From a virus: a stretch of 55,116 nt of DNA. Below, piece after piece: positions 6,466 to 54,118 of the stretch (its first letter is position 1; each line of letters starts with the position of its first letter). The translations under genes were made by a program, and so were the position numbers. The stretch lies in the IMG/VR virus record IMGVR_UViG_3300042388_000279, positions 1 through 55,116 of that record. One strand, 5' to 3'. The notes under the pieces are model-generated. The model saw nothing but the letters and a program-made list of their open reading frames with translations, did not search any database and was not told where the DNA came from.

Positions 6466-6605
6466 TACTTAGAGCCTTTAGCCTTCTGTCCTCTGTATCC
6501 AGTCTTTTTTATATTCATAGATCCTGGCTTTTTTTGTCCGCTAGCATATGTTCCTGATTGTCTTTGTGCTAATGCTCTCTGCATTTTATCTAGGTGTTTG
6601 CCCAT
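6465..6605 (-). CDS. Basic small protein, 46 aa
   Basis: Starts [18 protein letters not shown] and ends KKTGYRGQKAKGSK. Highly basic and Gly/Ser-rich, so likely to bind nucleic acid or to be disordered. TAATG overlaps join it to genes on both sides. Confidence 0.55.
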   Translation of the reverse strand: MGKHLDKMQRALAQRQSGTYASGQKKPGSMNIKKTGYRGQKAKGSK

Positions 6606-40659: not shown

Positions 40660-40896
40660 TTACCATTTACCTATTGGGCAAACCGCTCCCTTTAATCTTG
40701 TTTTCGCTGGCATAAAGCAACCGCATTCTTGGCAGGTCTTTACCCCGTCATTAAATTTAGGGCAGGCTTTACATAAAGAATACCTGGCACTTGACTCTTC
40801 TTCTGAAGAATACTCTGTGTTTGGATTTAAAAAATCCCAGGGTTTTACTTCATTTGAAGAAACAAGCTTTTTTGCTTGCTCCCATTTACTAGCCAC
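40660..40896 (-). CDS. Cys-rich protein, 78 aa, GTG start
   Basis: Starts at GTG behind GAGGG. C-K-A-C near 42-45 and C-Q-E-C-G-C near 55-60, with a last Cys near 73, give a zinc-ribbon pair after an acidic N-terminal half (SSEEESSARY). Similar Cys-rich proteins occur among late genes of aquatic phages. It overlaps its upstream neighbour by 8 nt. Confidence 0.6.
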   Translation of the reverse strand: MASKWEQAKKLVSSNEVKPWDFLNPNTEYSSEEESSARYSLCKACPKFNDGVKTCQECGCFMPAKTRLKGAVCPIGKW

Positions 40897-41122
40897 TTAT
40901 TTCCCTCAATTCAAACGACTGGCCGTTCCAAAAATAATTAGCGCCAGCTTTTGGTAAATCTGGAATATCAATTGCAATGTCTTCCATATCTACTAAAATT
41001 GGTGTGCTAGAAAGACCAGCTCTTAATAGATCAGTTCCAGGGCCAGCGATATTAAACCACCCAGCATACTCACCATCAACAAGAACCATGTATGTACTTC
41101 CTTGCATGTCTGACTTATTCAT
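40889..41122 (-). CDS. Hypothetical protein, 77 aa
   Basis: No family recognised. A small beta-rich protein (STYMVLVDGEYAGWF near the start, ANYFWNGQSFELREI at the end). An AAGGAG SD precedes the ATG. Likely a small structural or assembly protein. Confidence 0.6.
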   Translation of the reverse strand: MNKSDMQGSTYMVLVDGEYAGWFNIAGPGTDLLRAGLSSTPILVDMEDIAIDIPDLPKAGANYFWNGQSFELREISG

Positions 41123-41181
41123 AATATCTCCTTAACACAATGAATCATATCATTTATTGCAATAGATGTCTAGTAAAAAAT

Positions 41182-41763
41182 TTATTTGCCAAAGGATATT
41201 ACCGAGTGCTTCACTCCGCTTACTACTGGCAAAACCCTGTGTATATAATCTGAGCTGGAAGGGAATATTATCAGGCTATTCTTTTGAGGCTTTATCGGTA
41301 TGCTGTATGCTTTATCTTTAAACTGAATTTCCCCTCCCTCATAATCATCATTTATATAGTAAACAAACGATATAGTAGACGGGTGGCTTTTTCCATCGTC
41401 ACTGTGCCATGTGAGCTTTTGAGACTGCTCATACTTTAATATCTCCCACGGCTCCCTTTCTTTTATCTTTATTCCAGTTGATCTTACAAAATGCAATATA
41501 CACTTAGATAATGCTAGATCTATTTTTTTATTAAGAACTCTTTTTGCATTATTGTAATCGGATTTGTCTTGCAAGTTTGTGTATAATGAAAAAACAGTGC
41601 ACGAACGCAAGGAGGGGTCATAGTCATGATTATTTATTGTTGCGGACTTATAGTCTTGATTATAATCAGAAAATATACTATTTAGCTCAGTAAGAATTTG
41701 CAAATCATTTTCTATTGCATTCTTATACATAAATATTTTATTTCCCAGGTCTTCTACCTTCAA
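41182..41763 (-). CDS. 2OG-Fe(II) oxygenase, third copy
   Basis: A 193-residue prolyl-hydroxylase-like protein: H120-S-D122 as metal pair, Y-E-G-G-E-I-Q-F near 141-148, IIFPSS and H175 as third ligand; the usual 2OG-binding Arg is replaced by K185 (VKHSVISF). It starts at TTG with GGGGGA upstream and is placed directly after the giant tail protein, so a virion protein is a possible substrate (inference). Confidence 0.8.
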   Translation of the reverse strand: MKVEDLGNKIFMYKNAIENDLQILTELNSIFSDYNQDYKSATINNHDYDPSLRSCTVFSLYTNLQDKSDYNNAKRVLNKKIDLALSKCILHFVRSTGIKIKEREPWEILKYEQSQKLTWHSDDGKSHPSTISFVYYINDDYEGGEIQFKDKAYSIPIKPQKNSLIIFPSSSDYIHRVLPVVSGVKHSVISFGK

Positions 41764-41777
41764 CTTGTTCCCCCATC

Positions 41778-44700
41778 TTATGTCTTTTCGCTGAAGTTGT
41801 GAGCCATTAAGCCCTCAACAAAGTATATGTCTTTATTTTCAATATTAATTGAAACTGTTTCGACTATTTCATCAACTAAAATTTTTGAGGTAACCGTAAC
41901 GTTATCTAAATTCTCATTCATAACTGTATCACCCACATTTAAGTCTTTAACCTCAATAAATTTCCAAACACCGTTTTGTCTTGCTGGAATAATATGCTCG
42001 TACGTTATCTTAATTGTATCATTTATTAAGTAGTACTGTCCATAAGATCTTATAATAACATTTGTTACATTTGCTACAGTCTTAGTTGTTCCAGAAATAT
42101 CTTCGGATGACCAGAGAGATAGATTGCTTATGTCAGCTTCGTTGTCGCCAACACCTGGAACGTCTGCTGCCATTACTTCATCTCCAATATAAAGGTCTTC
42201 AATATTTTTAAATGTGCCATCTGCCATCTGTATTTTAGTTCCTACAACGTGACATCCACCACCGCCTGTATCAATTGTGTCAATGGTATCAATTGTATCA
42301 ATTGTATCAATTGTGTTAATAGTATTAATTGTATCAATTGTGTTAATAGTATTAATTGTATCAATTGTATCAATTGTGTTAATAGTATTAATTGTGTTAA
42401 TAGTATTAATTGTGTTAATAGTATTAATTGTGTTAATAGTATTAATTGTGTTAATAGTATTAATTGTATTAATAGTGGTACAGTTTCTGTATTCTATTTC
42501 AAAACTACTAACTTCTCTGGTAGACAAAACATTGCAGCTTGAATTAATACATGTTTCTATAGCAGTCCAAGTTCTAATTCTAGCCTGTTCTCCTTGGCTA
42601 CATGACCCCCATGACCCCCATGCGCTATAACTTCTATCACCAGTTGTACATCCTGCCGTGCAGCATGGCGCATACTCAAACTCAGTTCCGCTAACCTCTT
42701 TTGTTGATGAAGTGCAATTAACTGTATTGCTTGTTTCAATTGCCGTCCAGGTTCTAGAGCGTGTTCTTTCTCCTTGGCTACAGTTTCCGTATGCAGACCA
42801 GGCACTATATGTCTTTGGACCAGTGGTAACGCTAGCAGTACAACAATCTATACACTCAATATCATTTCCAGAAATAGTAGTTACTTCATTTGTGCAGCTT
42901 GTTGTAAAACAAGATTGTTGAGCTGTCCAAGGTCTTGTTCTGCAAATCTGTGAGGTAAATAGATTACAGCTTCCATACGCACCCCAGGCCCCATAAGTCT
43001 TTTCACCAGTTGTACATACCTGAGTGCAACATGATGTGTACTCATACTCAACACTATTTAATTCATTTTGAGAAATTATATTACAGCTTGAATCGATACA
43101 CGTATTTATTGCAGTCCAAGATCTCTGTCTTCTTCTCTCGCCATTACTGCAACTTCCGTATGCAGACCAATCACCGTAGGTTTTAGTACCCAGAGTACAC
43201 CCAGCTGTGCAGCATGGCGCATACCCAAACTCAGTTCCGTTTACTTCTTTTGTTGATGATGTGCAGTTAATTGTATTGCTTGTTTCAATTGCCGTCCAGG
43301 TTCTATAGCGTGTTCTTTCTCCTTGGATACAGCTTCCGTATGCAGACCAGTCACTGTATGTCTTTGGGCCAGTGGTGACGCTGGAAGTACAGCAATCTTT
43401 ATAATCGACATCATTTCCAGATCCTGGACCAACCGTAGTAACACAGCTTGAGTTTATAGTAGTAGCTGTTGCTGTCCAGGGAATTAGTCTTCCTATTTGT
43501 CCAGTATTTAAATTACATGTACCCCATGGGCCAGGTGTTCCGTAAGTTTTTGGTCCATAAGTTGTAGAAGGTGTACAGCAGCTTGTGTCCTGTTGCTCTG
43601 TACCACTTATTTCTGTTGTTGTTTCAACACAGCTAGTATTTGTTGTTATTCTTAGTGCAGTCCAGGTTCTTGATCGAGTTCTTCTAGGATCAGCTCCATA
43701 ACACTCGCCGTATTCAGACCAGGCACTGTATGTCTTATCCCCGTCAACTGTGCTGGCAACACAACAATCTTTAAACTGCTGCTCATTCCCAGACTCTTGA
43801 GTTGTAGTGGTAATGCAGTCTCTGCTGTAATTAGTTCTAGTAGCAGTCCATGGTACTAGTCTAGTTATTCCTACGTTAGGAGTACACGTACCCCAAGGAC
43901 CAGGAGTTCCATAAGTCTTTTCGCCTAAAGTTGAGGTGGCAATACAACAATCTATGTATTCTGTTTCTGAGCCAGAAAGCTCAACAGTAGTAACTACGCA
44001 ATTTTGAGAAGTAGTTTTTTGTTGCTGTGTCCATTGTCTAGTTCTTGGTCTCTTAGGATCTGCAGGGAAAACTGTACACAATCCAATAACCCATTCTGTA
44101 TAAACCTTTGGCTCCAGCACGACCTTTTGACAACATATTTCTGTTTTAGAGCAGGTTATAGAGTATCCGCTAGCGCCTCCAGATTTATCCGATAACTCAA
44201 TTGTTGGCCCAGAACAAACTACTGGCTGAGTATTTCCATATGTTAAGCAGTACCATATGGAACCTATTTCTGTACATAGAGTGTCGGATGTAGCTTGCTC
44301 ATAAGAGACTGCAGTTAAATTGACATTATCTATTTTTTCAGTTGTAACAGTTAGGCAGGAATCTCCACTGCTTGTTATTCCAGATACTGAAATTACATCT
44401 GCAGATATGGATGCTGACCCTAAGCTTACATTTGCTGTTATAGTAAATCCAGATAAGCTGCTATAGTTTGCTATATATACCTTATAACTATTTTCTGTAA
44501 TATCATAAGGCTCTCCAAGAATTGCCTCTACGCCAGTAGAAATTGTTCTAAAGCTTTTAGAAACCTCGTCGCTTTTGTACTTATCTCCTTCTCCAGCAAG
44601 TGCCGTTACCAAAACGGTATACAGTCTGTTTTCCGTTAATCCAAAAGGGCTGGCAGAAGTACTTGTTGTTGAGGCTAATGGATAGCCAGGCAAAGAGTTA

Positions 44701-45854
44701 CCTGTAATAGAATCAATTAGATCAACCTTGTATCTTTCTGCATCTGGTGAATACCAAGAAATGTCTGCGGAGCTTTTTGTTCTATTTGATATTGTTATTT
44801 CTGGGTTTTCTATTTCCCTAGGAGGGGTAAATACATATGAAGCAACTTGTTGGGTTTCATTAAAATCTAGCAGGTGCTGCTCCAAAGAAAGGCTGGGATT
44901 ATAATAGTAATCTTTTGCAACTGCATAAACATTAATTATATAGTCTTCACCAGAATCAATCATTGCTTGTGTATACTGTACAAAACTAGAGTACTGGTGA
45001 TTTGGAAGTACGTCTTCGCTTTTCAGATCTCCTATCCTTGTACCATAAAAATCAGTAAACTCAACTATTTGCTTTCCAATAAACTCATCAGTCCGAGATG
45101 AAGAAAAATATTGTCCATTTGGATATGATGATGCAGATGATGTTAGGTACTGCCATTTAAATCCAAATATTTTAAATTCAGGCATGCTAAGTGTTTCATC
45201 TTCAATTATTTGATCTCCAGTGCTGTATGTGTGAAATCCAAATGTTAGTTTTGGGAATATTCCGTTTGCACTTGGATACCATGTAGTTGCCTCTAAGTAA
45301 TCCGACTCTTCTGGATTTTTATCTTCTGCAGCTTGAATCTTTGCTCTAAACCCAACTTTATTTTTAATGTCTTCTAAATTAATTACTGGGCGCAATGCAG
45401 TATTCGTTGGAACCTGATCTAGGTAGTCAGAGTCTTTATATTCTAGATACTCTAATTCTTGAGTTATTAAATCTGTTTGATCTGCCCACCCGCCAAGGGC
45501 AGCCTTTTGAATTTTTATTAAAAAGGATTTAGGGTCTTCGTACCACTTTCCTCTTCTGACATACATCTTGTCTTGCTGAGTGCACTGATACTCTGACTCT
45601 ATCGATGATGGAGATATAAATACAAGACCCACGTCTGATTTTGGATATGGGAACGCTGCTCCAAATATTCTTCTCCAGATGCCGCTTCCTTCGTATCTCC
45701 ATATGCTTTTAAGTTTTACCCAGCCACGATCAGCCACGTTGACTTCTCCACCGAAGTCATTTATTCTTCTAAAAATATTTTTTATTTTTACCCAGCCATT
45801 AGTGGCTACAGAAACCTCACCGCCTGAGTCGTTAATTCTTCTCCAGATTGTCAT
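41778..45854 (-). CDS. Giant tail/fibre protein: TSP1-like modules, I-N/D-T repeat and C-terminal HINT domain
   Basis: A 1358-residue protein. Residues 1-60 hold two copies of an R-R-I-N-D-x-G-G-E-V-x-V-A...G-W-V-K unit. A fibronectin-III-like domain lies at about 345-440. Residues about 580-1125 hold nine modules of about 60 residues with Y-x-x-W-S-x-Y-G-x-C, R-x-R-x-W-T-A and paired CC, a TSP1-like Trp/Arg ladder. Residues 1127-1196 are 23 I-(N/D)-T triplets, then GGGG. C1201 opens a HINT domain (VVGTKIQMADGTFKNIEDL; block-B T-Y-E-H; end H1352-N1353). The +1 residue is Phe, so splicing is unlikely but N-terminal cleavage possible. No signal peptide. Probably a virion adhesin that processes itself. 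Confidence 0.85.
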   Translation of the reverse strand: MTIWRRINDSGGEVSVATNGWVKIKNIFRRINDFGGEVNVADRGWVKLKSIWRYEGSGIWRRIFGAAFPYPKSDVGLVFISPSSIESEYQCTQQDKMYVRRGKWYEDPKSFLIKIQKAALGGWADQTDLITQELEYLEYKDSDYLDQVPTNTALRPVINLEDIKNKVGFRAKIQAAEDKNPEESDYLEATTWYPSANGIFPKLTFGFHTYSTGDQIIEDETLSMPEFKIFGFKWQYLTSSASSYPNGQYFSSSRTDEFIGKQIVEFTDFYGTRIGDLKSEDVLPNHQYSSFVQYTQAMIDSGEDYIINVYAVAKDYYYNPSLSLEQHLLDFNETQQVASYVFTPPREIENPEITISNRTKSSADISWYSPDAERYKVDLIDSITGNSLPGYPLASTTSTSASPFGLTENRLYTVLVTALAGEGDKYKSDEVSKSFRTISTGVEAILGEPYDITENSYKVYIANYSSLSGFTITANVSLGSASISADVISVSGITSSGDSCLTVTTEKIDNVNLTAVSYEQATSDTLCTEIGSIWYCLTYGNTQPVVCSGPTIELSDKSGGASGYSITCSKTEICCQKVVLEPKVYTEWVIGLCTVFPADPKRPRTRQWTQQQKTTSQNCVVTTVELSGSETEYIDCCIATSTLGEKTYGTPGPWGTCTPNVGITRLVPWTATRTNYSRDCITTTTQESGNEQQFKDCCVASTVDGDKTYSAWSEYGECYGADPRRTRSRTWTALRITTNTSCVETTTEISGTEQQDTSCCTPSTTYGPKTYGTPGPWGTCNLNTGQIGRLIPWTATATTINSSCVTTVGPGSGNDVDYKDCCTSSVTTGPKTYSDWSAYGSCIQGERTRYRTWTAIETSNTINCTSSTKEVNGTEFGYAPCCTAGCTLGTKTYGDWSAYGSCSNGERRRQRSWTAINTCIDSSCNIISQNELNSVEYEYTSCCTQVCTTGEKTYGAWGAYGSCNLFTSQICRTRPWTAQQSCFTTSCTNEVTTISGNDIECIDCCTASVTTGPKTYSAWSAYGNCSQGERTRSRTWTAIETSNTVNCTSSTKEVSGTEFEYAPCCTAGCTTGDRSYSAWGSWGSCSQGEQARIRTWTAIETCINSSCNVLSTREVSSFEIEYRNCTTINTINTINTINTINTINTINTINTINTINTINTIDTIDTINTINTIDTINTINTIDTIDTIDTIDTIDTGGGGCHVVGTKIQMADGTFKNIEDLYIGDEVMAADVPGVGDNEADISNLSLWSSEDISGTTKTVANVTNVIIRSYGQYYLINDTIKITYEHIIPARQNGVWKFIEVKDLNVGDTVMNENLDNVTVTSKILVDEIVETVSINIENKDIYFVEGLMAHNFSEKT
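42267..42476 (-). repeat. Tandem repeat encoding I-(N/D)-T
   Basis: 210 bp of 9-bp and 18-bp units (minus strand AATACTATTAACACAATT and variants), 70 codons. Two frames on the plus strand are also open but are shadows of the repeat. Such tracts are prone to slippage. Confidence 0.9.
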
Positions 45855-45866
45855 ATTTCTACACCA

Positions 45867-48800
45867 TTAAATTCTTGAAAGCCATATATCTCCAGGATTA
45901 AAGCTTACAGATGTACCGCCAACGTCTCTAGTTAAAGCACCGTTAGGAAGGTTTCCTCCTCCATAATGAAATGCTCTACCAGTAGTCAAGTATCCATCTT
46001 TATCCTGCACAACAGTTGTGTCTCCGCCATACCCATCATTATTTGATGTTACGCTTAATCTGATTTTAAAGGCAGCATAAGGTTTTTGATCTGGATTTAT
46101 TGAAAAAATTCCATTTTCGTAAACAACTGATCTGTTTCCTAAACTAAAGCTTCCAGCACCTTTTGTTACCCCGCCTGGTCCTGTTGCTGGTATAGTTGTA
46201 GATTTTCCTAGTAAATAATCATTTGAAAAACTTTCACCTGCTCCTAAAAATATATTTGATGCAACTAAATCTGTTTGAATATTAAATGTTCCATTAGGGT
46301 TTTCTTGGGTAGGAGTTGAATAGGTTATTTTTCCGCCAGCTAATCTAAATGCACCAGATGAAGATATGTAATCAATATTTCCTGGGTTGCCGCTTCCCGA
46401 TCCTGGATATACTGTATTCCATTCAGCAGGTGTTGTAAAGTAATGATTTGACCCAACAATGTTTCCGCCAATAATAGAGCCTTGTTCTCCATTAAGTGTT
46501 ACTTGAGATAATGTATTTGTAGACTTAATATTTGCAGAATCGATTGTCCAGCCGCTTGTAATCTTATATCCTGTAGTATTACCTGCAGCAATATCTGCGG
46601 CTGTTGTAGGAACAGCTGTTCCGAAACCTCCTTGACCTGCAAATAGTGCTCCTTTAATAACTGCATCTACTGCAGTCATTTTACCTGAGTAGGTAACAGA
46701 GAAATTAGGAGAGACCGTTCTAGATCCTCCAGCCCAAATCATTACTGTTGAATCTGATGATGTATTTGGAGCATATAGTCCAACATTTCCACCATAGTTA
46801 ATGGATGAGCCAGATGCATCCTTTGACAATGTCCATCCAGCTATTAATCCTTTTACTGCTTTAATTCCATTCACTGTATCCAAAGAAACAAATTGTCCGT
46901 CTGCTGTGCTTGTTACCTGAATACCAGTTCCAATTTTAGCACCGAGTTGATCTTTTAAAACTCCAAACTCTATCTTTCCTTGGTCTGTGTTCAAAAGTAT
47001 TTGGCCGTCGCCGAAGTTAGTAGGAGATGTGTCACCAGTTCTTGTAGCCGATCCACCTATTTGAATAGAACCTATCACTCCATTGTCTACATATATGCTT
47101 CCTCGTATATTAGCATCATTGGCTTTTAGTAATCCAGTAGTTGCTGCAACTTCAAACCCTGAGCCAACTTTTATCTTACCGCCAGTAATATCAATATTGT
47201 TTGCTTTAACATATCCATTAGGCTTAACGTAAAATTCTGCTGCATCAGATCCGCCTGCTGAAGGTGAGCCTGCCCAAAATGAATAGGTGCTTCCTGGAGA
47301 CATTCCCGCATATCTCATAGATGAAACAGCAGGGGTTCCTACAGAAACCGTGTTTCCCTTTTCTATCTTGTCTAAAGAAATTTCCCATCCGCCAATGCGT
47401 CCTTTATTTGTTATAATTCCATTTAATGTATCGAGCTGAAACAGCTGTCCACTTGCATCTGTCCCCTGAATTCCATACTCATTTATAAATGCACCAGATG
47501 AATTTTTTAATTGTCCTACTTCAAATTTATTGGCACCAGAATAAACTCTTAGTTGGCCAGGAACTGTAGCACTTCCAATATCAACTGATCCAGTAAAGTT
47601 TCCAGCATTTGCATTTACAGTTCCAGTTACTGATAAATCCATTCCGTCCCAAACCATTTTGTCTGTTGTTCCACCGACTGTAAAGTAAGCAGCACTCGAC
47701 TCATTAGTATTTCCTTGCACATACCAATAATTATTTGGCGCTACGTAAAGTCCTTTTTGAGAATTATCTCCGTCAATTCCATATCCAAGCTTCATGTCTC
47801 CAGCGGTTATTGCTACATCTGGAAGCAAGGAGTTGCTGACTGGAGATACTACAGGATCATAAGTTCTCCATGCGGTTTCATTTGTGTTTCCGTAAATATC
47901 AAATGTGCTAACAGCAATCTCATATGTCTTTCCGCCTTTTAGACCATAAAGATAAGAGGAAGTTTTGGTTCTTCCTGGTACAGACATGTATGTGTAAGGA
48001 CCTGTTGATCCCTGTATCCTAAATCTAATTCTATATCCAGCAGTGTCTGGATCTGTATTTTCTGTCCATGTAAATAAAACTTTTTTATCAAAAGAAAATA
48101 AGCCGTTAGAGTCATCGGATACTGTAGCTGATTGCAATTCAAAATCATTCTCTGGAGGGTTGTCATCAAATGCAATTGAATCTATTGGCTTTACTGTTTT
48201 CTCTAAAGAAAAATTAGAGTAGCAGCCAAATTTTCCAACGTATCTTATTTTTACTATCTTATCTGCAAAAGGGCTTGTGTCAAGCTCGGTGCCTTTTATT
48301 GCTGGGCTTGGGCCAGAATAAACTAAAGTTGATTGCTGGCTACCAGCATCTCTCGCATAAACTTCTGTTGCTACCGCCCACGATGGTGCTGTCCATATAA
48401 CAGTGTAACCAGCACTTATGCCAAATGCGTCATCAATGGTGGGAGTTAATCCAGTTCCTTGGCATCCAATTGTGGGAGTTGTGAATGATACTCCAGCAGT
48501 AAAGTTTCCAGCAATATCTCTAGACTGAAAAAGCCCAGTGTATGAGGGTGTTAAATTTAAATAACCAAAATTTAGAAGAAAATCAGAATATGGTATTTTT
48601 AAACTATGAGTTCCAGAAGCAGATGGAGGCTCGCCATAAAATATTGCTGATGTTGGAGGAGTTAAAGTATTTGTTAAAGTAATCTTAAATCTATCTGGAG
48701 GGTTTGTTAAAGGCATTGTGTATGGTATAACAAGGTCCTCTCCAGACCAGGTTACATTTCCTAGAACTACTTCGTTTGGAGGCTCTTTATCAAATGTTTG

Positions 48801-49586
48801 AGGATCAAATATCTTTGCTGTTTTTACAGAAGAGTCCAGACCCTGGCAATCGGAATATGATAAGTGATTAACTTTAACATAAACATCATTTATTGTATCT
48901 AGGCCTATATCGGCAGGGCCAATTCCAGTATACCTTTGAACCCAATTGTAAGGGTTATTGGTTAAAGATACAAAAACTCTTGTCTCTCTATACGTTAAAG
49001 CTTTTGATAGATCATCTTGCCAAGATACCATTATTCCATCTATAGTACTTGCCACTTTCCATTTATCGTCTGGTATAGAGTTTGCACATATTGGATCAAC
49101 ATACGGTGCTAGCGTTACTGGGCATTGGTCTGAGCTTCCATCACCATACACACTTTGAATAGTAAAAGATGTAAATTCTGTTCTAAATTTATTTCCAAAC
49201 TGAAAAATATTATTTTCTTTAGTAAGAACCCATGAATAATTTAATGATGAGCCAGATGCTGGAATAAGTTGAGATCTTGTATATCCACCAGCAGTTAGCG
49301 ACACTACATAATTTCTTACACGGTCATCATTTTTTGTCCATGTTAAATTTAATCCAGCCGTTGCATCCCATGTGGCGACTACGTTTATTGGGCAAACCCT
49401 TGAGGGTGCAGGTGTAGTAAAATTAAATCTGTCTGAAAATTCGCTTGTTCCCAAAGACTTATCGCTATATATCCAAGCAGCCTGCAATGCATAATCAGTA
49501 TTACAATCTAGATCTGGGATTACAACATCCCAGTAGTCTCCATCTTGACTCTGAGTTATTCCTAGATCTGGATATTGTTCTGACAC
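45867..49586 (-). CDS. Large tail fibre / tail-tip protein with FN3 domains
   Basis: About 1239 residues. The first half (to about residue 590) is a row of beta-sandwich, fibronectin-III-like domains (for example VTWSGEDLVIPYTMP; AGYRIRFRIQG). The second half has repeated fibre modules with LDTLNGIITNKGRIGGWEIS and LDTVNGIKAVKGLIAGWTLS, common in siphovirus central fibres. GTG at 49586 is preferred to the TTG at 49598: GGGG lies six bases before GTG and the GTG follows the previous TAA directly. Probably recognises the host surface together with its neighbour. Confidence 0.8.
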   Translation of the reverse strand: MSEQYPDLGITQSQDGDYWDVVIPDLDCNTDYALQAAWIYSDKSLGTSEFSDRFNFTTPAPSRVCPINVVATWDATAGLNLTWTKNDDRVRNYVVSLTAGGYTRSQLIPASGSSLNYSWVLTKENNIFQFGNKFRTEFTSFTIQSVYGDGSSDQCPVTLAPYVDPICANSIPDDKWKVASTIDGIMVSWQDDLSKALTYRETRVFVSLTNNPYNWVQRYTGIGPADIGLDTINDVYVKVNHLSYSDCQGLDSSVKTAKIFDPQTFDKEPPNEVVLGNVTWSGEDLVIPYTMPLTNPPDRFKITLTNTLTPPTSAIFYGEPPSASGTHSLKIPYSDFLLNFGYLNLTPSYTGLFQSRDIAGNFTAGVSFTTPTIGCQGTGLTPTIDDAFGISAGYTVIWTAPSWAVATEVYARDAGSQQSTLVYSGPSPAIKGTELDTSPFADKIVKIRYVGKFGCYSNFSLEKTVKPIDSIAFDDNPPENDFELQSATVSDDSNGLFSFDKKVLFTWTENTDPDTAGYRIRFRIQGSTGPYTYMSVPGRTKTSSYLYGLKGGKTYEIAVSTFDIYGNTNETAWRTYDPVVSPVSNSLLPDVAITAGDMKLGYGIDGDNSQKGLYVAPNNYWYVQGNTNESSAAYFTVGGTTDKMVWDGMDLSVTGTVNANAGNFTGSVDIGSATVPGQLRVYSGANKFEVGQLKNSSGAFINEYGIQGTDASGQLFQLDTLNGIITNKGRIGGWEISLDKIEKGNTVSVGTPAVSSMRYAGMSPGSTYSFWAGSPSAGGSDAAEFYVKPNGYVKANNIDITGGKIKVGSGFEVAATTGLLKANDANIRGSIYVDNGVIGSIQIGGSATRTGDTSPTNFGDGQILLNTDQGKIEFGVLKDQLGAKIGTGIQVTSTADGQFVSLDTVNGIKAVKGLIAGWTLSKDASGSSINYGGNVGLYAPNTSSDSTVMIWAGGSRTVSPNFSVTYSGKMTAVDAVIKGALFAGQGGFGTAVPTTAADIAAGNTTGYKITSGWTIDSANIKSTNTLSQVTLNGEQGSIIGGNIVGSNHYFTTPAEWNTVYPGSGSGNPGNIDYISSSGAFRLAGGKITYSTPTQENPNGTFNIQTDLVASNIFLGAGESFSNDYLLGKSTTIPATGPGGVTKGAGSFSLGNRSVVYENGIFSINPDQKPYAAFKIRLSVTSNNDGYGGDTTVVQDKDGYLTTGRAFHYGGGNLPNGALTRDVGGTSVSFNPGDIWLSRI

Positions 49587-49587
49587 A

Positions 49588-50448
49588 TTAAACCCCAAAC
49601 GAAAGGTCTAGTTTAAATTCTATTGATGCTTCTCTTCCAATTACTTTAATCATTGTTGAGTCTAGTATAGATCTGGCAATGAGACCGTATTCTGGATCAA
49701 AGGTGTCCTCGTCATTTATTCTAAGACCATCCATAGATACAGATGTTTGAGCAGTTGTTGGAGTAACAATAATTCCTAACTTAACAACACTTTGTGGATT
49801 AAATGTTCCTGTTGATACCCCAGTAGACATGTTTAAATTCTTTATATTGTTTCCAACTGAGTGTCCAGTAAATGTAAATTCTAAGTAATCGGTATTTGAG
49901 CTATAGAGCCTTACCTTCAATGAGGACAGGTTTGCATCATTTGCTTTGTATGAAAATGATAATGTATCTAATGGGTTGTACCCAGATATATCCATACTAT
50001 CAAGTATGTAAGTGTACTCTTTTGGGGCCGCCCCATTTGATGTAAATGTTAACGAACTATCTCCAACTCTAAAGTTTGTTTGATCTAGCTCTGGCTCTGG
50101 ACTCCACTGGTATGGCAATTCAAAGTTAGATATAAATTTGCTTTCATATAAATTTCTTGAATAAGACTGGCCAGAGTAGATTCCAATTTCATTAATCTTA
50201 CCTGCAATGTTTGTAGGAAGTGTAGCTGAATAGATTACTGTATATTTTATTGGTGATACAGAAGAGTCTATATCGATCCCTCCGACCCTAATTGGAACAC
50301 GATAGAACTCAAAACCAAGTCTTGAGTTTGTATCTGACAAAGCATATTCAGTTCCTGTTGCAATTCCAATAGCCATTTCTTTTGAAGAAAATGATGAGTT
50401 ACCAGCTACAAAATTAGTAAGAAATCTTTTACCAAATTTAGTTATCAT
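49588..50448 (-). CDS. Minor tail protein
   Basis: A 286-residue protein starting MITKFGKRFLTNFVAGN with K-E-M-A-I-G-I-A-T-G, and IAGKINEIGIYSGQS in the middle, a pattern common to minor tail proteins between the tail-tip and fibre genes. The C-terminal half is a jelly-roll-like beta domain (SLTFTSNGAAPKEYTYIL...). Likely part of the baseplate or fibre base. Confidence 0.7.
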   Translation of the reverse strand: MITKFGKRFLTNFVAGNSSFSSKEMAIGIATGTEYALSDTNSRLGFEFYRVPIRVGGIDIDSSVSPIKYTVIYSATLPTNIAGKINEIGIYSGQSYSRNLYESKFISNFELPYQWSPEPELDQTNFRVGDSSLTFTSNGAAPKEYTYILDSMDISGYNPLDTLSFSYKANDANLSSLKVRLYSSNTDYLEFTFTGHSVGNNIKNLNMSTGVSTGTFNPQSVVKLGIIVTPTTAQTSVSMDGLRINDEDTFDPEYGLIARSILDSTMIKVIGREASIEFKLDLSFGV

Positions 50449-50792
50449 GATCTTCCTCCCTGCTTATCTGATATTGTTATTGCGTATAAGAAACCATCTA
50501 TCTTCTCTTCGCTTGAATTGTAAATTCTAAACTTAGCTCTTGCTCTTTGCATTCCAGATGCATCCTCATACAGCTCAAATCCTTTTAAAACTATGTCTGA
50601 AAGCTGAGGCCTTTTACCGCCTTTGGGATCGTCGTCTCCATCTTCGTCCCCAGGAGATCCTACAGAACTGTTTGATCCAAATGGAAAGGATTGAGTAATG
50701 GACTTAGTCTCTCCAGACTTGCCCTTCCAAACTTCGGCTAAACGAGGGTCATCATCAAAGATGACTGGTATTTTTCCTACTTCAATTCCCAT
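50445..50792 (-). CDS. Small tail protein, 115 aa
   Basis: No family recognised. An acidic, Gly/Asp-rich middle (SPGDEDGDDDPKGGKR) is followed by a beta-strand C-terminus (RARAKFRIYNSSEEKIDGFLY). It overlaps the minor tail protein by 4 nt and is expressed from its own leaderless promoter. Tail assembly role is inferred from position. Confidence 0.6.
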   Translation of the reverse strand: MGIEVGKIPVIFDDDPRLAEVWKGKSGETKSITQSFPFGSNSSVGSPGDEDGDDDPKGGKRPQLSDIVLKGFELYEDASGMQRARAKFRIYNSSEEKIDGFLYAITISDKQGGRS

Positions 50793-50798
50793 TTATTT

Positions 50799-50807
50799 AT
50801 TATACCA
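50799..50807 (-). promoter_or_regulatory. Leaderless extended -10 promoter, TGG-TATAAT
   Basis: TGGTATAAT on the minus strand, six bases before the ATG at 50792. No -35 match at 17 bp. It would add transcription inside the tail operon. Confidence 0.6.
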
Positions 50808-50815
50808 TTACGCCA

Positions 50816-53800
50816 TTAGATTGCTCTACATGAAAGCGTAGTGGTTACCCCCTCACTATATTGCAAGGAGCATCTAACAACTAAATATTTAGTATCTGTT
50901 TCAGACATGCCCAAAACTGGGTATTTAATACTTATAATATCGCCAGCAGAAATTAAAGGGTTTCCAAAAACTTCTATGTCCACAAACCTTCCTTTATTTA
51001 ATACGCTTGACTTTATCCAATCTGCTAAAGTTTTTGCGTCCTCTTCAGACTGAATCCAAGAAGATTCAAAAACAACAAATTCTTTATTTGAGGAGTCCTC
51101 TGACTGATCTGTATCGTAGTCTATGGCGCCAGACCTTCTTATAGAATTTCCCAAAACATAAAAACTTGTATTATTACTATCATCTAAAACTACAGTAGTT
51201 GAAGTGTTATTTAAAACGTAAGATTCGGCACCGAAAGGCTGTAACCTTTGATCTAATATTTTAACATATTTATTTAATGCGGTTCTAAAAGTAATTGGTA
51301 CGGCTGGTCTAGACTCATCATCATAAGACTCTTTTACTTTTCTTATTTCTCTAGCGGTAGTTCCGAATTCAAAAAGGGCACCGTTTTCGTCGGCAGCGGT
51401 TTGGCCAGCATTGTAAATTAAATCTCCAAATAGCATAGAAAGAGTATCATCAGCATAAACACCATTGTATTCATAATTCCTGGTTAAAGATATATTTTTG
51501 TATACATCTTCATCAATACTTTTAGCATACAGATATTCAAAATAAGCAATTCCCTGACCACAGTGTAGTCCAACATTTTTTGTTATTGAAAGAGGTGGAA
51601 TAGTTAAATTAACAGAATCACTTCCAGAATCAATTGCTTCAATTTTAAATCCATTAATAAAGACAGTAATTATATTTTTTAAAGATTCTTTTTTTACCAG
51701 TACATCTATATTGTAAGAGCTGCCAGCGTAAATTCCAGCCAATGTTTTGGTAGATGTCTGCTGGCTATCTTTTAAAACTGTAAGCTTATTATTATTAACT
51801 CTAACAACCATAATATCTTTTTGAAGGCCAGAAAATGCAGTTGTGCGTACAAGCACGTAGTAACCATTTTTGCCAGTTGAGTCTAAGCAAAATCCAATGC
51901 CACCTACCTGCTCTGGTGTATTAAGCTGGCTATCAAAAAACATCCTTGTTCCAAATGAAACAAAAGGCTTTGTAGTATCTACTGAATTAAAATCTTTAAC
52001 TGCAATATCAAAAGTTTTTTTATCTTTATCTAGATTTGAAATTGCTAAAAAGCTTTTTGCAATTGTTTCTTCTTCGGTGTTTGCTGGAGTTGTAATACTT
52101 CCCACACCAGGCTTTAGCTTTGCTACATCTGGAGTAGCTAGGGTAATATTATATTTATTAAATCTATTTGAATCATTTTGCCCAGGCTCATTTATGTAAG
52201 AGTTTAAAGTTTTTTTGTGAGACATTTTAGAGGTGGACAAAGCTCCTCTGGTTTTTATATTATACTCTCCAGTAGGATAAAAATATTTATAACCTGGTTT
52301 AGCTAAAGCTGAATACTTCCATATGTCAGATTGATTTTTAATTAGCACTCTAACTGGAGGCTTATCACGTGGAGGAGTAAATGTTGTGTCTTTCTCTTCA
52401 GGTACATACTGATACCAGACTCCATCATACTCAATAACTTCTCCGTTTATTAAAACATAACCGTTAAACTGATCTAAGATTTTATCTACTCTTGCAGAAT
52501 TTATTGTATTTTGATTAAGCTGAAACTTTGTACTGTCGTCATTGATATCTGTTGCAAGGGAGCCAGCACCTAGAAATGAAGATTCAGATTTCCACAAAGG
52601 AGAGGATGATTCTGAATTGGTAGAAACAAATGCTGTTTTATATCTTACTCTAACATTATTAGCTGAAAAAAGCTCCTTGGTAGACAACCTAATTATGTTA
52701 GGCGCATATTCTACATTAGATCCAGACTTGATTTCCTCATTTGTAAATATCCATGAGGTAGGTAATTCTTTGTCGTATATAAAGTTTCTAGTATAAAAGT
52801 TTAATACATTGTATTCATCTACAAATGCATTCATCTGTATGTCTCTACATAGCTCTTGCAAAACTTCCCAGACTGTTTGTTCACCGTCCGACCACCAATA
52901 AACTAAAGATGGAATAGAGTCGTCATCAACCTTCCCATCTGTTTTTTTAATATTTATCTTGTAATTAGAAAATCCAACTGAGTCTAAAATTCTTTTAATT
53001 ACTGAAGTTACAGGTGAAGACTCTACTAAAAGCTGAGGACATATAGTATCTTGAAGTATTTTTGCAGCATCTGTTGCATCTATGGATGCTTCTCCAAACT
53101 CTGATAGTGACCAAGAGGCTACATAAAAAACTCCTTGAGGTACCTTTTGCACGGAAGATCCGTCTCCAATATTTATGTGTGGTCTTATAATTGCATTCTT
53201 AAACAAATATAGTTTTGAGTTATCTATTGGGCCAAACCTATCATATTCAACTATCTGCCTAGATGTAGTATTGTATTTTGTTATCAAAAGGCTGAGGTAG
53301 TTTGCCGTTATAACCCCAACTGGAACAATAGAGGTATCATCTGAAGTAGTTTCTTTATTTACTGTAAACGAAACAATGTCTGAATCTATTGACATAACCC
53401 ATCTTGGACTTAACTCAATTACTCCCAAAAACTTTCCTGTATTTGAATTAACTGCAGCTAAAGATATCTTTTTAAAGTATTGAGTTGTTGTATATGTAGT
53501 AGGTTCTGCAGTTGACCATGTAGTTCCATCATAATATATTATTGCTTCCCCGCCTTTATAATCTGGCGCTTCTTTTTGGGTGAGAGTTGTGCCAGATACC
53601 GTTATGGTTGTGTTATCTTGCTTAACTCCAGTTATTGTCCATGATGTGGGTGTGTCGTGGCTAGTTTCAAATCTGGCAACAATCTTATTGGCGGGAACTA
53701 ATTTTGCAGTAGTCTTTGCTTCATCTGAAAAATACTCTAAAGAAATATCTATATTAGTGTTTTTAGGCGCTAACCAATATTTATAAACCATATCTGGTCC

Positions 53801-54118
53801 AGGATAATAAAGCCTTGGCCTTGTTCCAATATCTAAATCCCTTGGTCTTTCAAAAGAATCAACGGGGGTGTCTGTGTTATTATTTGTATGAACTAGATAT
53901 TTAATTCCTGGAGATAGTGGTCTAAATGGCTTATAAATAGTATCTATTGGAAATAGCTTTTTAAAAGCAGGACCAAACGGGTTTGTTAAAGCAGATGATG
54001 TTGCTTTTATATATTCAACCATAGAGTTAAGATTGTATTCAATTGTAGCTCCAGCTGAAGTTGATAGCGAATATCCTTTTTTAATTAAATCTTTAGTTTC
54101 ATTTGATACAGTTATCAT
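50816..54118 (-). CDS. Tail-tip / tail-associated protein with LamG-like domain
   Basis: An 1100-residue protein in the position of the tail-tip hub of siphoviruses, two genes after the tape measure. N-terminal 600 residues are beta-rich with WEVLQELCRDIQMNAFVDEY, typical of baseplate-hub proteins that fold like gp27. About 715-870 is a LamG/concanavalin-like jelly roll (GFCLDSTGKNGYYVLV; LHCGQGIAYFEYLYA), likely sugar-binding. The C-terminal part resumes the hub fold (SIKYPVLGMSETDTKYLVVR). Confidence 0.75.
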   Translation of the reverse strand: MITVSNETKDLIKKGYSLSTSAGATIEYNLNSMVEYIKATSSALTNPFGPAFKKLFPIDTIYKPFRPLSPGIKYLVHTNNNTDTPVDSFERPRDLDIGTRPRLYYPGPDMVYKYWLAPKNTNIDISLEYFSDEAKTTAKLVPANKIVARFETSHDTPTSWTITGVKQDNTTITVSGTTLTQKEAPDYKGGEAIIYYDGTTWSTAEPTTYTTTQYFKKISLAAVNSNTGKFLGVIELSPRWVMSIDSDIVSFTVNKETTSDDTSIVPVGVITANYLSLLITKYNTTSRQIVEYDRFGPIDNSKLYLFKNAIIRPHINIGDGSSVQKVPQGVFYVASWSLSEFGEASIDATDAAKILQDTICPQLLVESSPVTSVIKRILDSVGFSNYKINIKKTDGKVDDDSIPSLVYWWSDGEQTVWEVLQELCRDIQMNAFVDEYNVLNFYTRNFIYDKELPTSWIFTNEEIKSGSNVEYAPNIIRLSTKELFSANNVRVRYKTAFVSTNSESSSPLWKSESSFLGAGSLATDINDDSTKFQLNQNTINSARVDKILDQFNGYVLINGEVIEYDGVWYQYVPEEKDTTFTPPRDKPPVRVLIKNQSDIWKYSALAKPGYKYFYPTGEYNIKTRGALSTSKMSHKKTLNSYINEPGQNDSNRFNKYNITLATPDVAKLKPGVGSITTPANTEEETIAKSFLAISNLDKDKKTFDIAVKDFNSVDTTKPFVSFGTRMFFDSQLNTPEQVGGIGFCLDSTGKNGYYVLVRTTAFSGLQKDIMVVRVNNNKLTVLKDSQQTSTKTLAGIYAGSSYNIDVLVKKESLKNIITVFINGFKIEAIDSGSDSVNLTIPPLSITKNVGLHCGQGIAYFEYLYAKSIDEDVYKNISLTRNYEYNGVYADDTLSMLFGDLIYNAGQTAADENGALFEFGTTAREIRKVKESYDDESRPAVPITFRTALNKYVKILDQRLQPFGAESYVLNNTSTTVVLDDSNNTSFYVLGNSIRRSGAIDYDTDQSEDSSNKEFVVFESSWIQSEEDAKTLADWIKSSVLNKGRFVDIEVFGNPLISAGDIISIKYPVLGMSETDTKYLVVRCSLQYSEGVTTTLSCRAI

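Follow-up and report, generated by a model that had tools for sequence, protein, structure and literature searches.

A type A BIL-like HINT domain caps the repeat-rich stalk of a phage tail protein and probably removes itself

What is a HINT domain doing at the very end of a phage tail protein? The question is raised by a viral DNA of 55,116 nucleotides (IMG/VR record IMGVR_UViG_3300042388_000279, positions 1 to 55,116; the whole stretch analysed is called the window here), in which a first-pass annotation read a giant tail protein as ending in a Hedgehog/intein-type domain. The tail-protein assignment was upheld and the predicted fold is that of a HINT. The reading that we consider probable is that a Hint of the type A bacterial intein-like (BIL) kind caps a repeat-rich stalk and removes itself. 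The features of the tail protein and of the genes upstream are as follows (rows are those of the 31-row alignment described below).

45867..54118, minus strand: tail-module genes upstream (1243, 286, 115 and 1100 aa); ORFs, Pfam and PHROG
41778..45854, minus strand: whole tail protein, 1358 aa, stop codon included; ORF and translation
44559..44801, minus strand: fibronectin type III domain, residues 352-432; Pfam PF00041, 26.5 bits, cut-off 25
42490..44177, minus strand: Cys/Trp-rich repeats, limits approximate; read in the sequence
42268..42477, minus strand: (I-N/D-T)n stalk tract, an 18-bp tandem repeat; repeat analysis
42255..42266, minus strand: GGGG linker preceding Cys1, residues 1197-1200; Gly at -1 in 24/31 rows
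41781..42254, minus strand: Hint (type A BIL-like) with its 5-residue tail, residues 1201-1358; model, profile and Pfam
41781..41795, minus strand: C-terminal pentapeptide FSEKT, release predicted; +1 residue and length vary among relatives

The tail protein is encoded by the final large gene of the tail module and matches PHROG 38766 'virion structural protein' (E 1.9e-13); tail PHROGs are also matched by the upstream 286-aa and 1100-aa proteins. A tail region conserved in relatives is followed by fibronectin III (one domain in the 1358 aa by Pfam), the Cys/Trp-rich repeats, the (I-N/D-T)n tract, GGGG and the Hint. By eye, the repeats at 42490-44177 (minus strand; WSxYGxC...GERxRxRxW) recall thrombospondin type 1. 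This reading, made by eye only, was dropped; the repeats gave no thrombospondin-type Pfam match at E ≤ 1, and a PDB sequence search with them returned 0 matches at E ≤ 1. The 286-aa protein is matched by 132 phage records (127 named Streptomyces, 5 Rhodococcus), all at below 60% identity, and in gene order (minor tail genes first, then metallophosphoesterase-like, DnaB-like and primase-like ones; names outside the tail module were assigned by eye) the window resembles the Streptomyces phage Tomas (Stanwilliamsviridae). Because of these matches and this gene order, the host is probably an actinobacterium. The GC content is 35-40% per 5-kb block of the window. A tail ORF with an identical Hint (L002; locus numbers are prefixed L) ends at 6489 and is 24 codons longer than that of the window; the number of INT repeats perhaps differs.

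Structure prediction and an HMM search against HINT families had both been proposed as checks on the domain. The AlphaFold model of GGGG, Hint and tail (mean pLDDT 91.6, pTM 0.86) shows the HINT fold, and on this model residues 1201-1358 form a HINT domain. Among PDB chains, BIL structures ranked first: 6y75 was the top chain (Z 19.9, rmsd 1.8 over 139 residues), 2lwy gave Z 18.4 (rmsd 1.7 over 131 residues) and Hedgehog 1at0 gave Z 16.7. Z was at least 8 for 84 of the 998 chains aligned to the model, and the 50 entries listed in the structure comparison were all inteins, BIL domains or Hedgehog. The BIL chains 6y75 and 2lwy were again top-ranked by Foldseek. The resemblance is no accident: searched on its own, the domain matched PT-HINT (PF07591) best in Pfam, at E 2.9e-6 and just above threshold (28.0 bits, cut-off 27.7); the families Hom_end_hint, Hint, Hint_2 and Vint stayed below theirs, and with the full-length tail protein every Hint family was below the Pfam cut-off. 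A profile of 29 phage Hint rows matched best 2lwy, 'bacterial intein-like domain' (E 1.5e-20). The top three BFVD matches are 1304, 153 and 506 residues long, the lengths of three phage NCTB Hint proteins, from which we infer that they are those proteins.

All the motifs named in the first-pass annotation were found: GGGG, C1201-HVVGT, IGDEV, TYEH (1284-1287), VGDTV and H1352-N1353, followed by FSEKT. The predicted active site is made up of three elements.

42252..42254, minus strand: Cys1201 (Cys1), predicted nucleophile of the N-S acyl shift; 9/9 clade rows, 29/31 wider rows
41994..42005, minus strand: block B, T1284-Y-E-H1287; T and H in 9/9 clade rows, T in 28/31 and H in 30/31 wider rows
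41796..41801, minus strand: H1352-N1353, predicted site of Asn cyclisation; 9/9 clade rows, H in 29/31 and N in 28/31 wider rows

Judged by motifs and model, the domain is type A BIL-like rather than Hedgehog-like, because Cys1, block-B T-x-x-H and a terminal His-Asn occur together and yet the +1 residue is Phe. Of the Hedgehog and bacterial intein-like layout first proposed, the intein-like half thus stands, with Gly before the Cys and possible thioester chemistry; the Hedgehog half does not, the type A BIL being closer.

Conservation was followed in two alignments. In that of the window clade (nine rows, the window and eight relatives), C1, T88, H91, H156 and N157 (alignment numbering) are invariant (9/9), seven kinds of residue occur at +1 (F, I, Y, N, L, I, I, S and A), and the trailing peptide is 5-9 residues long. 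The block-F position in this clade is Ser, not Asp, a point against self-removal. The wider alignment (31 rows) consists of 30 of 32 earlier rows and the window; of the two omitted, L003 is the same as the window and L033 differs little from L031. C1, H91, H156 and N157 are all kept in 28/31 rows, which are not independent because 13 are related Erwinia/Dickeya-type sequences; these 13 have Thr at +1. Purifying selection acts on the Hint: among 8 pairs with the window, the 6 with unsaturated dS gave a dN/dS of 0.09-0.26, values that are rough at a dS of 0.9-2.3.

A course of events can be proposed for the folded domain. Cys1201, aided by Thr1284 and His1287, would attack the Gly1200 carbonyl to form a thioester, and Asn1353 would cyclise with help from His1352, freeing FSEKT. 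Most of the thioester would then be hydrolysed, so that the tail protein ends ...IDTGGGG and a 153-residue Hint comes free. The cuts are predicted at the Gly1200-Cys1201 bond and after Asn1353, and the domain would be shed from the stalk. On its residues, self-cleavage of the window Hint is likely. By analogy with the unrelated chaperone domains of tailspikes, such trimming may mark or follow stalk assembly.

According to passages in PMC4031507 and PMC7664689, type A BILs have a terminal His-Asn, an N-terminal thioester and C-terminal Asn cyclisation; although they have no +1 nucleophile they can splice, the freed amine attacking the thioester, and cleavage dominates. The earlier argument that Phe at +1 makes splicing unlikely therefore fails for type A BILs (same passages). 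That the Gly1200 thioester is ligated, being taken by an amine so that the stalk is joined covalently, nevertheless seems unlikely to us, whether the acceptor were the amine of the freed FSEKT, which would be protein splicing, or a lysine on an adjacent protein of the virion or host surface. Type A BILs do ligate without a +1 nucleophile (a passage in PMC4031507), a BIL of the T. thermophila BUBL1 locus is the nearest among solved structures, the donor end is Gly-rich, and the neighbouring 2OG oxygenase, to which the Hint is linked, might prepare the acceptor. Characterised BILs, however, chiefly cleave (passages in PMC4031507 and PMC7664689), and no conserved acceptor was found among the Hints, in which +1 and the trailing peptide vary. 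Lysines of the C-terminal tail were not counted as evidence for an acceptor within the protein, Lys being present in the last five residues of 890 of 1585 other locus genes.

An IMG/VR scan with the window domain gave 8 loci, and 77 when the alignment was used. By tblastn, 94 cultured-phage records match (48 named Erwinia), with query coverage of 80% or more in 52; T4-like phages contribute matches in UvsX-type genes. One scan of cellular genome contigs gave 6 loci, L081 and L082 with most of the domain (29% and 25% identity) and four with matches limited to 28-34 residues. The short matches of L083-L086 lie on Psychroserpens and Bacteroidales contigs.

In the window clade, in cultured jumbo phages of Erwinia and Dickeya and in two NCTB proteins, the Hint comes at the very C-terminus, followed by 5-10 residues; in L061 35 residues trail it, and elsewhere the remainder is usually short. 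Stalk-type proteins examined have INT, IAT, PVGVS, VAQNTQ, FFPP, VTP or Pro-rich stretches before the Hint, and some have collagen-like Gly-X-Y with an intervening domain; the exception is the 1304-aa NCTB protein, which has no simple repeat. In these sequences the Hint caps stalks rich in repeats, and the phage tail proteins concerned are of many different kinds. Stand-alone Hint ORFs adjoin Hint-bearing proteins in L011:6492-6950 (NCTB; 153 aa) and L071:5959-6459 (166 aa); that of NCTB is without Cys1 and has the C-terminus HNKVD. Pairs of stalk-Hint matches occur about 9-12 kb apart on one contig (L262/L271, L276/L280, L287/L302, L293/L295, L310/L317, L311/L324 and L304/L314). In L066-L069, L047, L059 and L080 the Hint lies near the N-terminus of long proteins that by eye resemble tail-tip (J-like) proteins.

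For a census of catalytic residues, 93 unique single C-terminal Hints were grouped into 42 clusters at 60% identity, each with one representative. At least five clusters are by eye not phage tail proteins (L046, L053, L077, L083 and L084), some are stand-alone or tandem-family ORFs (the third protein of L011, L071, L112 and L113), and L057 was miscounted, its Cys being present at a shifted position. Subject to these limits, C1, block-B His and His-Asn are intact in 18/42 clusters, the class to which the window Hint belongs; Gln replaces the block-B His in 8/42 that keep C1 and His-Asn, His-Asn is missing beside C1 and Gln in 5/42 and beside C1 and His in 4/42, and 7/42 are of other kinds. As just 18 of 42 clusters keep all three, the fold can outlast full catalysis. 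Judging by these residues, activity has probably gone, partly or entirely, from a share of the family, and not every member should therefore be treated as self-processing.

The degenerate clusters count against self-removal and give some support to a reading about as improbable as ligation, in which the Hint serves as a folded tip or organises the trimer and is retained for shape or binding, with catalysis weak, lost or irrelevant. Members lacking one or more of C1, block-B His and His-Asn persist in 24/42 clusters (a few of them non-tail, and L057 a miscount), and in L034, which has none of C1, block-B His, penultimate His and Asn, both the ORF and the adjacent oxygenase are still present. 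Against it, five residues are invariant in the clade of the window itself (9/9 rows).

The neighbourhood of the gene was compared among relatives. The oxygenase gene is the next one downstream of the tail protein.

41182..41763, minus strand: 2OG-Fe(II) oxygenase; Pfam PF13640, 57.4 bits, cut-off 27
41123..42489, minus strand: cassette of repeat tract, Hint and 2OG gene, missing in L172; blastn (limits from L175, 41134-42525)
40889..41122, minus strand: 77-aa gene where homology to L172 and L175 resumes; ORF and blastn

The oxygenase domain begins 311-362 bp past the Hint ORF in 12 of the 20 records measured, six of which are of the window clade (window, L006, L008, L009, L012 and L015); the distance is 0.8-1.5 kb in three and 4.2 kb in one, and four, including two short contigs, have none near. 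In L071 the oxygenase adjoining the Hint is the sole PF13640 match in 73 kb. The records of L006, L009 and L015 (115-117 kb) have eleven PF13640 matches apiece. Over all gene calls, an oxygenase is the next gene for 73/156 Hint genes and 50/1352 other genes, a descriptive figure because the loci were chosen by Hint and many are near-copies, ordinary inteins count among the Hints, and neighbours of this kind served as seeds of the oxygenase profile. On a tree of 72 rows, the oxygenases adjoining single tail-type Hints form one clade (support 100/98) comprising L002 (a copy of that of the window), L006, L008, L009, L012, L017, L018 and L019, as well as L034 with its degenerate Hint. Those adjoining tandem Hints sit elsewhere; all 18 Hint-adjacent rows require 7 changes and so are not one clade.

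An obligate Hint-2OG pair was rejected: the oxygenase family is far larger, with at least 565 relatives, of which 80 loci were kept. In the reciprocal scan a Hint was directly upstream of 12/283 oxygenase genes and within two genes of 19/283, and the Dickeya/Erwinia jumbo records L021 and L022 have Hints and no PF13640 match (2/2). Action of the oxygenase on Asn/Asp of the INT tract was also weakened as a candidate by L017 and L020, in which the oxygenase adjoins the Hint gene or lies two genes away and the repeats are not INT. The oxygenase may modify the stalk, the linker or an acceptor.

Scanning with the N-terminal region of the tail protein found 12 loci, ten on contigs already known to bear Hints. 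In the other two, L172 and L175, the tail proteins end in FFPP repeats; both whole records, which are perhaps fragments, lack a Hint match. The corresponding site holds no oxygenase in either, and elsewhere there are six in the L172 record and none in that of L175. By blastn, homology to L172 ends at window position 42490 and restarts at 41122 (89.6% identity over 3.1 kb), and homology to L175 ends at 42526 and restarts at 41133. As these boundaries flank all three, repeat tract, Hint and oxygenase were swapped as one block. The Hint-less state of L172 and L175 may go back to a single event. Since two relatives do without it, a tail protein of this type does not in general require the Hint; these relatives, too, weigh against self-removal.

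Block exchange of the cassette would also fit a mobile module, and the homology of HINT to inteins, including the UvsX-gene matches, points the same way. That the Hint is a selfish element, such as a decaying intein, left behind at a gene end is nonetheless very improbable in our judgement: an endonuclease would not fit, a C-extein is missing, and the domain has identical C-terminal placement in many different tail proteins and evolves under purifying selection.

A separate family of phage proteins carries Hints in tandem. A scan with such proteins found relatives encoded on 165 stretches, of which 79 loci were kept; tandem-Hint loci are L031, L071, L079 and L088-L165 (e.g. L090:4202-6976 and L071:1236-3551). 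There are 82 tandem ORFs, 54 unique by C-terminal region, with three Hints in 36, four in 13 and two recognised in 5. His-Asn precedes the next Cys at 113 of the 116 Hint-Hint junctions of these 54 proteins, and the linkers have 0-12 residues (0-7 in 107). No Cys is found near the start of the first Hint in 51/54, and in one clade the last Hint is without His-Asn. A model of one tandem protein (mean pLDDT 74.8, pTM 0.48) gave Z 24.7 to 6y75 for the second Hint and Z 16.9 to a class 3 intein for the first; the fold matches listed for tandem models cover Hint regions. Pfam matches of two full tandem proteins were of Hint type only (2/2; one family AXH). An ATP-grasp reading of the N-terminal part, tentative and made by eye only, gained no support, with no PHROG match at E ≤ 0.01 in 3/3 such parts. 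Nothing in the tandem-Hint proteins examined marks them as tail proteins.

In engineered split-intein cyclisation, a Hint ending in His-Asn, a short linker and a Hint beginning with Cys follow one another in this order. Because the tandem proteins have this order, they could release very small cyclic peptides. A more sweeping scheme would make phage Hints transpeptidation devices, in which a Gly-thioester is handed to an acceptor amine, possibly made or tuned by a dedicated 2OG oxygenase, so that stalks are capped or linked covalently and the tandem proteins release cyclic peptides; we hold it to be a long shot.

Hint names were already in use in BFVD, and an NCTB protein is annotated as 'putative phage tail protein, contains intein domain', so the domain had been noticed before. 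No description of a Hint or BIL on a phage tail protein, or of tandem phage Hints, was found among the papers listed in searches of PMC open-access full text, and no cleavage data for any of these Hint proteins in the literature examined. To our knowledge, little is established about the natural role of BIL domains. A stalk-end Hint in many phages, some of them cultured, makes a role in virion assembly or attachment directly testable, and the natural presence or absence of the oxygenase-bearing cassette provides a built-in comparison.

Among known systems, the Hog domain of Hedgehog shares the fold (1at0, Z 16.7). Hedgehog has a Gly-Cys junction and Hog is C-terminal, as with the window Hint; Hog has a sterol-recognition region after the Hint and no terminal Asn step. 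The window Hint, in contrast, ends in His-Asn with five residues following, and because there are just these five it has no sterol-recognition region. The C-terminal chaperone domain of phage tailspikes has a fold other than HINT. The tail protein has the HINT fold and no Pfam match to the tailspike chaperone family at E ≤ 1; the two are alike in outline, as C-terminal self-removal, and the likeness is an analogy only. That chaperone domain cuts itself off the trimeric fibre with a Ser-Lys dyad (a passage in PMC3828593). In polymorphic toxins the HINT directly precedes a C-terminal toxin (a passage in PMC3482391), whereas nothing lies beyond FSEKT in the window protein. Class 1 phage inteins (TerL, UvsX, RNR) have the fold and catalytic residues in common with it and are followed by a C-extein starting with Cys, Ser or Thr; the window Hint is not inside a conserved enzyme, has no endonuclease and is followed by Phe and five trailing residues in all. 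Type B BILs are without similarity to intein block G according to a passage in PMC4031507; the window Hint, which has His-Asn, is not of that type.

Closest are the type A BILs, represented by 2lwy of C. thermocellum and 6y75/6tmm (BIL2, T. thermophila BUBL1), whose own type A status is our reading of their names and of a C1A-N143A mutant title. The fold is common (Z 18.4-19.9), as are Cys1 and block-B TxxH (C1201, T1284, H1287) and the terminal His-Asn (H1352-N1353; definition from a passage in PMC4031507), and a +1 nucleophile is not fixed in the window clade, Thr being the residue in Erwinia/Dickeya-type rows. The phage Hint differs from them in ending a tail stalk, with 5-10 trailing residues in the phage groups listed earlier and therefore hardly any C-terminal splice partner, and in travelling with a 2OG-Fe(II) oxygenase gene. 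It is thus a Hint of a known kind, type A BIL-like, in a setting that is new as far as we found, widespread and linked to an oxygenase.
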